A stretch of DNA of 64,000 nucleotides from Blattabacterium cuenoti (lineage in GTDB: Bacteria > Bacteroidota > Bacteroidia > Flavobacteriales > Blattabacteriaceae). Location of the stretch: the NCBI RefSeq assembly GCF_014251275.1, contig NZ_CP059183.1:397001-461000 (forward strand), given 5' to 3'. The notes under the pieces are model-generated. The model saw only the letters and a program-made list of their open reading frames with translations, did no database searches and was not told the origin of the DNA. The translations under genes were made by a program, and so were the position numbers. This document shows, one piece after another, positions 15,938 to 21,345 of the stretch. The stretch's first letter is position 1. Every line of letters starts with the position of its first letter.

Positions 15938-17338
15938 ATGGCAGTAATAATGACACAAAAAAATTATATTATGAAAAAACAAATATTATTTAATTCAAAA
16001 AAATATTTTTACATAGAAAATTTTGGATGCCAGATGAATGTTTCAGATAGTGAAATAATTACTTCAATTTTACTAAGAAATGGATTTAACTTATCTAAAA
16101 GTTTAAAAGAAGCAAATATTATTTTATTAAACTCTTGTTCAATTCGAGAAAAAGCAGAAATAACTTTAAAAAATAGATTAAAAGAATTAAAAAACTTAAA
16201 AGATAAATATACTTTATTTGGAATTATAGGATGTATTACAAAACAAAAAATAAAATACTTTTTAAATAAACAAAAAGTAGATTTTTTTGCAAATCCAGAT
16301 TCTTATAAAGAAATACCAAAAATTATTTACTCTTGTATAAGAGGAGAAAAAATTATATATACTCCAAAAAAAAAAGAAACTTATTCAGATATAATTCCAT
16401 TTCATTTTTCAAAAAAAATAAAATCATTTTTAAGTATAACAAGAGGATGTGATAATATGTGTACTTTTTGTATAGTCCCTTTTACAAGAGGTAGAGAAGT
16501 AAGTAGAGATCCAAATTCTATTATTAAAGAAGCTCAATATTTATTTGAAAAAGGTTATAAAGAAATTACTCTATTGGGACAAAATGTAGATTCATATAAA
16601 TGGGAATCTAAATCTAATATAGATAAATATTATAAAAAACACAATAAAAAATACACAATAAACTTTTCTGAACTTTTAGAACTTATAGCAAAAAAAATAC
16701 CATTTATTAGGATAAGATTTTCCACTTCTAATCCACATGATATGTCTGATGAAGTTCTTAAAATTATTTCTAAATATAAAAATATATGTAAACACATTCA
16801 CTTACCAGTTCAATCTGGTAGCAATAAGATTTTGAAATTAATGAATAGAAAATACACTAGAGAAAAATACTTATCATTAATAAAACGTATTAAAACTATA
16901 GTTCCTGAATGTTCAATATCTCATGATATTATGACAGGTTTTTGTGAAGAAAATGAAAAAGATCACTTAGACACATTAAGCTTAATGAATGAAGTTAAAT
17001 ATAATTATGGATATATGTTTTCTTATTCACCTAGACCAGGAACATATGCATATAGAAATTTACCAAATAATGTTCCTAATGAAATTAAAAAAAAACGATT
17101 AATAGAAATAATAGAATTACAAAAACTGCATTCTATTATGAGAATGAAAGAATATTTAGGAAAAGAACAAGAAATATTAATAGAAGGAATATCAAAAAAA
17201 AGTTACAATTATTTATATGGTAGAAATTCACAAAATATAGTAGTTGTTTTTCCAAAAGGATTTTACAAAATAGGTGATATAGTAAAAGTTAAAATACAAA
17301 AAATAACTTCAGCAACATTAATAGGAAATCTATGTTAA
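15938..17338 (+). CDS. miaB: tRNA-2-methylthio-N6-dimethylallyladenosine synthase
   Basis: Radical-SAM enzyme that methylthiolates i6A37 in tRNA, acting after MiaA (also in this window, at 36 kb). The 466 aa contain the N-terminal cluster cysteines (NFGCQMNVSDSE, NSCSIREKAE), the radical-SAM CxxxCxxC in RGCDNMCTFCIVPFTRG, and a C-terminal TRAM domain. The start could be one of several nearby methionines (codons 1, 5 or 12); family N-termini do not decide it. The sigma-54 activator follows after 30 bases. Confidence 0.95.
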   Translation: MAVIMTQKNYIMKKQILFNSKKYFYIENFGCQMNVSDSEIITSILLRNGFNLSKSLKEANIILLNSCSIREKAEITLKNRLKELKNLKDKYTLFGIIGCITKQKIKYFLNKQKVDFFANPDSYKEIPKIIYSCIRGEKIIYTPKKKETYSDIIPFHFSKKIKSFLSITRGCDNMCTFCIVPFTRGREVSRDPNSIIKEAQYLFEKGYKEITLLGQNVDSYKWESKSNIDKYYKKHNKKYTINFSELLELIAKKIPFIRIRFSTSNPHDMSDEVLKIISKYKNICKHIHLPVQSGSNKILKLMNRKYTREKYLSLIKRIKTIVPECSISHDIMTGFCEENEKDHLDTLSLMNEVKYNYGYMFSYSPRPGTYAYRNLPNNVPNEIKKKRLIEIIELQKLHSIMRMKEYLGKEQEILIEGISKKSYNYLYGRNSQNIVVVFPKGFYKIGDIVKVKIQKITSATLIGNLC

Positions 17339-17368: not shown

Positions 17369-18649
17369 ATGAAATCTATTAAAAACATAAAACAAAAATT
17401 TGGAATAGTTGGACATGATTATTCTCTTTTAAGAGCATTAGAAAAAACAATTCAAGTTTCTCCAACAGATATTTCTGTATTAGTACTTGGAGAAAGTGGA
17501 GTTGGTAAAGAATTTATTCCAAAAATAATTCATCAATATTCTTATAGAAAACATTCTCCTTATATTGCTGTTAATTGTGGAGCTATTCCAGAAGGGACAA
17601 TAGATAGTGAATTATTTGGTCATGAAAAAGGTTCTTTTACAGGAGCTACAAATATGAGAAAAGGATATTTTGAAGTTGCAAATGGCGGAACTATATTTCT
17701 AGATGAAGTTGGTGATTTACCTCTTACTACACAAGTACGTTTACTTAGAATTTTAGAATCAGGAGAGTATATTAAAGTAGGATCTTCAAAAATACAAAAA
17801 ACTAACATACGTATTGTTGCAGCTACAAACTTAAATATGATAGAATCTATAGAAAGTGGTAAATTCAGAGAAGATTTATATTATAGACTTAATACTGTTC
17901 AAATAGATGTTCCACCTTTACGTTTTCGTAAAAACGACATAAAATTTTTATTCAAAAAATTTTCTATAGATTTTGCAGAAAAATACAATATGCCACCTAT
18001 AATATTAACAGAACAATCTTTAAAATATTTAGAAAACTATCCTTGGCCAGGAAATATTAGACAATTAAAAAATTTTATAGAACAAGTATCAGTAGTAGAA
18101 ACTAATAGAGAAATTGATATTGAAAAATTAAAAGAATATCTTCCAAATAACATTCCATATAACATTCCATCATTATCTTTTTCAAGATTCAATTTTAGTA
18201 GTAAATCATTTATTAATAATTTATCTAATGATCGTGATTTTATATATAAAATTTTATTTGAAATGAAAAAAAATTTTAATGATTTAAAAAATATAACATA
18301 TAAGTTAATAAAAAACAACCAAAATATCAGATTTAATAGAGAAAATCAAAAAATTATATATGATTTTTTTGGAAAAGAAATTTCACATACTTCAAACAAA
18401 GAAGATTCATTATTTCAATTAGAAGTAGAAGGAACTACTAAATCCTCTTTGGAAGAAGATCTAGATTTAGATTATGAAGATATAGAAATAGATAAAGAAG
18501 AAATTTCTTCTTTATCTCTACAAAAACAAGAAATAAAATATATTCAAAAAGCTTTAAAAAAAAATAATGGAAAAAGAAAAAAAACTGCAAAAGAACTAGG
18601 AATTTCAGAAAGAACTTTATACAGAAAAATTAGACAATATGGTTTATGA
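17369..18649 (+). CDS. Sigma-54-dependent transcriptional activator without a sensor domain
   Basis: Enhancer-binding protein of 426 aa that would remodel sigma-54 RNA polymerase. The AAA+ domain starts almost at the N-terminus: Walker A GESGVGKE at 41-48, the sigma-54 contact loop GSFTGA at 88-93 (canonical GAFTGA) and Walker B GGTIFLDEVGDLP. An Asn/Asp/Glu-rich linker follows, then a Fis-type helix-turn-helix at the C-terminus (KTAKELGISERTLYRKI). There is no receiver, GAF or PAS domain, so it may be constitutively active or controlled by its level. It lies between miaB and secG-groESL, the conserved flavobacterial location. A sigma-54-type promoter is found before groES. Confidence 0.94.
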   Translation: MKSIKNIKQKFGIVGHDYSLLRALEKTIQVSPTDISVLVLGESGVGKEFIPKIIHQYSYRKHSPYIAVNCGAIPEGTIDSELFGHEKGSFTGATNMRKGYFEVANGGTIFLDEVGDLPLTTQVRLLRILESGEYIKVGSSKIQKTNIRIVAATNLNMIESIESGKFREDLYYRLNTVQIDVPPLRFRKNDIKFLFKKFSIDFAEKYNMPPIILTEQSLKYLENYPWPGNIRQLKNFIEQVSVVETNREIDIEKLKEYLPNNIPYNIPSLSFSRFNFSSKSFINNLSNDRDFIYKILFEMKKNFNDLKNITYKLIKNNQNIRFNRENQKIIYDFFGKEISHTSNKEDSLFQLEVEGTTKSSLEEDLDLDYEDIEIDKEEISSLSLQKQEIKYIQKALKKNNGKRKKTAKELGISERTLYRKIRQYGL

Positions 18650-18796: not shown

Positions 18797-19033
18797 ATGT
18801 ATATCACTGTATTGGGAATACTTATTTCAATTGTTAGTATTCTACTTATATTTGTTATTTTAATACAAAGTCCAAAAAAAGAAAGTATAAATCAATCTTT
18901 TATGGAAAAAAATTTTAGATTTTTTGGAATAAAAAGAACTAATACTTTTTTAGACAATATCACATGGTCATTATCAATTATAATATTGCTATTAATTTTA
19001 ATTTTCAATTATTTATTAAAATCAAGAAATTAA
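18797..19033 (+). CDS. secG: Preprotein translocase subunit SecG
   Basis: A 78-aa small accessory subunit of the SecYEG channel. Two hydrophobic helices (about residues 3-24 and 53-73) flank a polar loop containing the SecG-like FFGIKRTNTFLDNITW. It lies between the sigma-54 activator and groES as in free-living Flavobacteriia, but the genes usually found just before secG there (LptE-like protein) are absent and the 147-base gap holds no ORF. Confidence 0.87.
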   Translation: MYITVLGILISIVSILLIFVILIQSPKKESINQSFMEKNFRFFGIKRTNTFLDNITWSLSIIILLLILIFNYLLKSRN

Positions 19034-19042
19034 ATTATATTA

Positions 19043-19055
19043 TGTCATAATGACA
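19043..19055. promoter_or_regulatory. Candidate upstream activator site (palindrome)
   Basis: Perfect palindrome TGTCATAATGACA with a one-base centre, starting 10 bases after the secG stop and 45-57 bases upstream of the -24 element. Position and symmetry suit a binding site for a Fis-type activator dimer. No binding data; assignment is inference. Confidence 0.5.
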
Positions 19056-19099
19056 CTTAATATTGTTATAAACAAGTAAAAATTTAAATATTTTTTATT

Positions 19100-19115
19100 T
19101 GGCATGTTTTTGGCT
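19100..19115 (+). promoter_or_regulatory. Candidate sigma-54 (-24/-12) promoter for groESL
   Basis: TGGCATGTTTTTGGCT matches the sigma-54 consensus TGGCACG-N4-TTGCW: GG at 19101-19102 and GC at 19113-19114 have the diagnostic 10-base spacing, with C-to-T at position 6 and T-to-G at position 13. It is the most G/C-rich short segment in an otherwise A/T gap. Transcription would start near 19126, about 170 bases before groES. Confidence 0.65.
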
Positions 19116-19295
19116 TCATTAACTAATAAAAAGTAAAATTATATTATAATTATATAATATGATCTATAACTATAATAAAAATAAATAATAAAAAAAAATT
19201 AAAATTAAAAAACAAAAAAAACAATTGTAATTGTAAGTAAAATAAATTAAGTTAAAGTTAATACAAATACAAAAATTAAAATTAAAATATAAAAT

Positions 19296-19574
19296 ATGAT
19301 GGAAGTAAATATTAAACCATTATCAGACCGTGTACTTGTAAAACCTGACCCTGCTGAAACAAAAACTTCTTCAGGAATTATAATTCCTGATACTGCAAAA
19401 GAGAAACCACAAAAAGGAACTATAATGGCAGTAGGAAAAGGAAAAAAAAATGAACCAATGATTCTAAAAGAAGGAGATAGAGTTTTGTATGGTAAATATT
19501 CTGGAACAGAATTAAAATGGGAAAATGAGGAATATCTTATTATGAGAGAATCCGATGTAATTGCTATTATATAA
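19296..19574 (+). CDS. groS: Co-chaperonin GroES
   Basis: A 92-aa heptameric lid of the GroEL folding chamber. The mobile loop is [18 protein letters not shown] and the core includes [13 protein letters not shown] and [14 protein letters not shown]. The ORF starts with two ATG codons, and the second could serve equally. It is followed by groEL after 49 bases. A sigma-54-type promoter lies about 180-195 bases upstream. Confidence 0.97.

Positions 19575-19611: not shown

Positions 19612-21345
<1,734 letters not shown>

Follow-up and report, generated by a model that had tools for sequence, protein, structure and literature searches.

Sigma-54 and a dedicated activator appear to be kept in Blattabacterium almost only for GroESL, through a DNA code common to free-living Flavobacteria

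Results

Genes and elements at the groESL locus

The chaperonin locus of Blattabacterium cuenoti was analyzed within a window of 64,000 nt (the whole stretch of DNA studied here), which covers positions 397001-461000 of a one-contig genome and in which genes and elements follow one another on the + strand in the order miaB, EBP, secG, palindrome, -24/-12 element, groES, and groEL. As the initial annotation had laid out, the activator (EBP) reading frame lies two genes upstream of groES. The features, in window coordinates, are as follows:

15938-17338, + strand: miaB, which opens the presumed miaB-EBP operon (PF04055, PF00919, PF01938)
15944-15954, no strand: decayed operator copy GTAATAATGAC heading the miaB-EBP operon; most relatives have it intact
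17369-18649, + strand: sigma-54 activator (EBP) with AAA+ domain, lid, helix 280-315, linker, and Fis-type HTH (PF00158, PF25601, PF02954)
18797-19033, + strand: secG, between the activator and groESL (PF03840, 52.2 bits)
19043-19055, no strand: palindrome TGTCATAATGACA (consensus TGNCANNNTGNCA), putative operator for the EBP, with counterparts before grpE and miaB
19100-19115, + strand: sigma-54 (-24/-12) promoter TGGCATGTTTTTGGCT of groESL, assigned on conservation and spacing
19125-19127, + strand: predicted groES transcription start, placed by the usual -12 to +1 distance
19296-19574, + strand: groES, target gene (PF00166, 114.4 bits)
19624-21270, + strand: groEL, target gene (open reading frame; family orthologues 72-88% identical)

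The promoter element and the palindrome each occur once in the window, at exactly the positions and with the sequences first annotated. The promoter bases, TGGCATG-TTTT-TGGCT, resemble TGGCAY..TTGCW and have the GG-N10-GC spacing of a -24/-12 element (GG at 19101-19102 and GC at 19113-19114); the -12 portion, TGGCT, is one base off TTGCW, which counts against a sigma-54 promoter. Transcripts made with sigma-54 depend on rpoN and begin 11-12 bases past the -12 GC. The perfect palindrome occupies the bases 45-57 positions 5' of the promoter, so that it ends 44 bp before it, and the only zero-mismatch match to its 11-mer core, GTCATNATGAC, in the 594,902-bp genome is the groES site. When the 263-bp secG-groES gap was shuffled, the promoter alone was never recovered in 50,000 trials, nor was the composite of palindrome and promoter in 200,000. 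The CIRCE consensus before groESL reads TTAGCACTC-N9-GAGTGCTAA, and inspection by eye found no such HrcA/CIRCE repeat in the secG-groES gap. The groES leader (19116-19295) is ∼170 nt long here, whereas that of almost every relative measures ∼25-65 nt; a structured RNA in this AT-rich leader was considered and rejected, since its predicted fold is not unusual (z-score 0.03).

Conservation across 49 Blattabacterium genomes

The promoter TGGCATGTTTTTGGCT stands unchanged before groES in 45 of the 49 Blattabacterium genomes, and its GG and GC do not vary in any of the 49 aligned copies. Mean pairwise identity reaches 0.98 in the promoter, 0.86 in the palindrome, and 0.87 in the groES coding sequence, whereas four of five flanking 16-bp blocks show only 0.39-0.56; the A/T-rich 10 bp directly 5' of the promoter show 0.73. 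Both motifs are thus retained while most of their surroundings drift. The half-site bases of TGNCANNNTGNCA are matched at 7/8 or better in 48 of the 49 genomes, and in some species both half-sites are altered symmetrically (TGCCATNATGGCA, TGCCATAATGGCA, and TGCCATTATGGCA), as expected of a dimer site. The third base of the palindrome and its partner also vary freely, being complementary in 35 of 48 copies. Overall, groESL lies behind a sigma-54 promoter, in conserved or weakened form, in all 49 genomes, and grpE-dnaJ does so in most; a dnaK behind such a promoter was seen only in free-living relatives. In B. cuenoti EUPHYsp (G014, 511 kb), the palindrome is lost and the promoter weakened to TGGTATGTTATTAGCT, while rpoN and the EBP gene are intact; its groES control is possibly a circuit in mid-decay.

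Sigma-54 and its activator

The window's genome contains a complete rpoN, encoding the activator-interacting (AID), core-binding, and DNA-binding domains together with the RpoN box, and rpoN was found in all 49 Blattabacterium genomes, as was an EBP orthologue. PF00158 has one strong match in the window's genome, the EBP (216.8-219 bits, with the next protein at 37 bits). The EBP has the hallmarks of a bacterial enhancer-binding protein, namely GESGVGKE, the GSFTGA loop (GSFTGA or GAFTGA among the orthologues), and FLDEVGD. Its Fis-type HTH reads LGISERTLYRK, and the ISERTLYRK portion is almost unvarying across the phylum. Domain profiles show no N-terminal sensor, as had been annotated. Between the AAA+ domain and the HTH, a long helix is predicted at residues ∼280-315 (LYKVLFDMKKDxNDLK), which is present phylum-wide in Bacteroidota orthologues. 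The linker around it is otherwise poorly conserved and disordered (AlphaFold2 pTM 0.60, linker pLDDT <50), and the conserved helix may serve in dimerization or regulation. The EBP reaches none of the NCBIfam equivalog cut-offs, so its family carries no specific name in NCBIfam; its score as a PspF orthologue, for instance, is 273.2 bits against a cut-off of 443.55.

The EBP is likely to bind the groES palindrome via its HTH, a sequence-based assignment that draws on the co-conservation, phasing, and joint loss described here and below. Some free-living genomes have a second, NtrC-like activator near grpE, which was set aside as a palindrome binder because Blattabacterium holds a single true EBP.

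Operator copies at grpE-dnaJ and miaB-EBP

Scanning the genus with the operator pattern ATGNCATNATGNCAT returned three recurring places: groES, grpE-dnaJ, and the start of the miaB-EBP operon. In most Blattabacterium, grpE-dnaJ is preceded by a unit of palindrome and sigma-54 promoter, with a near-consensus promoter such as TGGCAAATCTTTTGCT ∼10-12 bp past the palindrome. This unit is gone in the window's genome, where groES alone keeps a full unit, and no recognizable grpE unit is left in the reduced genomes G009, G014, G022, G038, and G039 either. One genome carries the grpE operator-promoter unit in two copies ∼630 bp apart (G032:C1:87562-88236).

At miaB, the palindrome has no GG-N10-GC in the 87 bp after it and is often followed by sequences resembling TACCTTTA; we therefore infer autorepression of a primary-sigma promoter, which is probably the function of the palindrome at the head of the miaB-EBP operon, judged from these sequence features. 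In F. psychrophilum, the EBP gene likewise starts from a non-sigma-54 motif (PMC9723704).

For the window's genome as a whole, the statements made here are based on searches with patterns and profiles, together with the stretches of sequence inspected. A strict-pattern match present in most genomes of the genus, TGGCACGGAGTTTGC, is antisense to 16S rRNA and was set aside. The pattern TGGCAN6TNGCW has four further matches in the window's genome, of which one lies within a long sufS-like reading frame and was discarded along with two others that, by eye, fall in coding-like sequence; the 16-mer of the match at ∼52647 of the window recurs in another species. With the patterns used, no further conserved sigma-54 site was found in Blattabacterium.

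Operator-promoter spacing follows the helical repeat

The gaps between palindrome and promoter before Blattabacterium groES are 12, 32-35, or 42-46 bp. Across the order, the gaps fall at 12-13 (41 matches), 22-23, 31-34, 42-44, 54, and 65 bp, with one outlier at 26 bp, and a period of 10.5 bp gives them their highest resultant length, 0.89. The 16 genus-level gaps that do not belong to the 12/13 class are in phase with this period, which none of 100,000 random sets reproduced. Activators of this kind commonly occupy sites ∼100-150 bp upstream, from which they reach the promoter by looping (PMC7057263). The sites described here lie 12-46 bp away in the genus and up to 65 bp in the order, and the 10.5-bp ladder therefore indicates promoter-proximal, helically phased binding, unlike the usual arrangement. 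Moreover, a gap of 12 bp leaves no space for a loop, from which a direct, face-specific contact would follow.

These distances bear on the mode of action initially annotated, in which a permanently active EBP bound at a distance would loop to the promoter. Such a model draws on the missing N-terminal sensor, and it would suit the groESL overexpression reported for many insect symbionts, Blattabacterium included (PMC5592932). We nevertheless consider it unlikely: the phased sites at 12-65 bp do not agree with a distal enhancer at 100-150 bp (PMC7057263), and three further observations speak against permanent activity, namely (i) that the conserved helix between the AAA+ domain and the HTH may regulate the EBP, (ii) that PspF-type EBPs, which also lack sensors, are controlled in trans (PMC7057263), and (iii) that the sigma-54 chaperone promoters of F. 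psychrophilum are condition-dependent (PMC9723704).

The circuit in Flavobacteriales and its loss in the wider family

Of 196 genomes of the order, 86 contain the composite of a palindrome followed after 5-65 bp by a sigma-54 promoter, while a backward control pattern gave only a handful of matches. Twenty composite loci were read, and a chaperone gene follows in 19 of them (grpE in 14, groES in 3, and dnaK in 2). The remaining locus (in G082), the sole non-chaperone composite among the 20, has a very short reading frame downstream. One contig each from Flavobacteriales and Flammeovirgaceae carries TGNCANNNTGNCA both ahead of groES and ahead of the EBP gene or miaB. Of 18 genomes of the order that were tested, 17 have an EBP orthologue; the one without, G079, is 86% complete. 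Several free-living genomes have a groES operator that matches at just 7/8 and an imperfect -12. The conserved position of the activator beside groESL, which had been annotated for Flavobacteriia, is borne out by synteny that reaches from free-living members of the Flavobacteriales down to symbionts of 263 kb.

Six genera of the wider family have rpoN, and three lack it. In the rpoN-bearing genomes read from the six genera, the EBP gene is always upstream of groESL. Conversely, the 11 rpoN-less genomes with groEL showed no EBP motif over the ∼6 kb upstream, and both operator and promoter were missing before groES. The rpoN-less genera sit at three separate places on a GroEL+MiaB tree, so that rpoN, the adjacent EBP gene, and the groES motifs were apparently lost together about three times, a count kept tentative because of the long branches in this tree.

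This joint absence bears on a different assignment of the palindrome, according to which the -24/-12 element is real and driven by the EBP while the palindrome is the site of another regulator with the same targets, e.g., a stress repressor. The nearness of the palindrome to the promoter, as at many repressor sites, and its copy at miaB-EBP without a sigma-54 promoter would be in keeping with such a regulator. Nonetheless, operator, EBP, and rpoN are jointly absent beside groESL in three genera, phased gaps out to 65 bp fit an activator in contact with polymerase, and the palindrome also marks the operon of the EBP itself, whose HTH is almost unvarying in the phylum. A separate regulator is accordingly quite improbable in our assessment, and the EBP remains our preferred occupant of the palindrome.

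Erosion of the promoter is visible in some lineages. In small rpoN-bearing relatives, the -12 GC has decayed (g2, TGGCATATTTTTGGAT; g77, TGGCATATTTTTAGTA; g78, TGGCATTTTATTATAT), and the 309,299-bp genome G232 keeps rpoN and the EBP gene with no recognizable operator or sigma-54 promoter before groES; sigma-54 may have another target there. Together with the weakened promoter of G014, these cases could be taken to mean that the sigma-54 element is a fading relic and that groESL is transcribed from an ordinary primary-sigma promoter in the gap, a reading also fitted by the GroEL production of rpoN-less symbionts and by Sulcia, in which groESL ranks among the genes with the highest expression (PMC5592932). 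A relic, however, would not be expected to show 98% identity against 39-56% nearby, across 49 genomes with intact rpoN and EBP genes, and we regard this explanation as very improbable indeed.

Discussion

Taken together, our analyses very probably describe an ancestral EBP/sigma-54 circuit on groESL, shrunken along with the genome. Sigma-54 RNA polymerase would bind the -24/-12 element at 19100-19115, which is conserved and accompanied by an intact rpoN. An EBP dimer would sit on the palindrome at 19043-19055 through its Fis-type HTH, and its AAA+ ring would assemble beside the polymerase, always on one side of the helix, and would use ATP to open the complex for groESL transcription; co-conservation, phasing, and co-loss are the grounds on which these EBP steps are proposed. 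The ancestral sigma-54 chaperone circuit of Flavobacteriales (groES, grpE, and dnaK) would then have been reduced with the genome, most Blattabacterium retaining the groESL and grpE-dnaJ arms. The lineage of the window no longer has the grpE arm and retains little of the autoregulatory site; rpoN and the EBP therefore seem to persist there for essentially one promoter.

Two outcomes that would have contradicted the initial interpretation, a genome lacking rpoN and motifs not kept in close relatives, did not arise. Of this interpretation, the sigma-54 promoter, the symmetric operator, and the neighboring EBP as the protein likely to bind it are supported, whereas permanent activity, looping, and the replacement of a heat-shock sigma factor are not. 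The last of these had been proposed for the symbiont, but the arrangement is inherited from free-living ancestors. In F. psychrophilum, mapped starts with -24/-12 motifs are described for groESL, dnaK, grpE-dnaJ, htpG, lon, and clpB (PMC9723704), and sigma-54 transcription of groESL, being known in a free-living flavobacterium, is therefore no symbiont invention. That report leaves open which of three EBPs acts and, in the sections consulted, names no operator (PMC9723704). For these SM4 chaperone promoters, we propose one EBP and one operator, and in Blattabacterium just one or two promoters are left of the regulon. Promoter-matrix predictions of Flavobacteriia sigma-54 regulons are likewise enriched in chaperones (PMC12316311); the target class matches ours, and word searches of that paper turned up no analysis of operators or spacing, with Blattabacterium appearing only in a reference.

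Among known activators, the PspF/HrpRS type resembles the present EBP in combining an AAA+ domain and an HTH with no N-terminal sensor; the present EBP differs in being non-orthologous and in having an extra conserved helix, a disordered linker, and promoter-proximal sites. NorR operators have a GT-N7-AC core and lie further upstream, as triplets. Their symmetric half-sites, which serve an HTH_8 EBP, resemble the palindrome described here, but the score of the present EBP as NorR (277 bits, cut-off 476) does not support orthology.

That Blattabacterium, Walczuchella, and Uzinura retain RpoN has been described as unusual, with a role in nitrogen control suggested for Walczuchella (PMC3971599). 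Such a role may still apply. In the open-access literature, subscription papers aside, we found no report of the operator, its phasing, the EBP assignment, or a groESL-based reason for RpoN retention. What is new here is the assignment of activator and operator, the helical phasing, and the reason for rpoN retention. With moderate confidence, we propose that in the most reduced lineages the sigma factor and its activator survive for groESL alone; that they act through helix-phased proximal palindromes (a 10.5-bp ladder, 12-65 bp) and no distant looping enhancer; that this code is common to Flavobacteriales and appears in Flammeovirgaceae; and that chaperonin supply, not nitrogen control, explains why rpoN is kept in Blattabacterium and other tiny flavobacterial symbionts.

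The series described here offers natural sigma-54 promoters whose operator spacing changes in steps of one helical turn, which is useful for studying short-range activator action. For a large bacterial group, an activator and a DNA code are named for the sigma-54 chaperone response, and both can be tested in cultivable Flavobacterium. For insect symbionts of 260-640 kb, the evidence points to groESL instead of nitrogen as the reason for retaining rpoN, and it ties their known high chaperonin levels to a specific switch.
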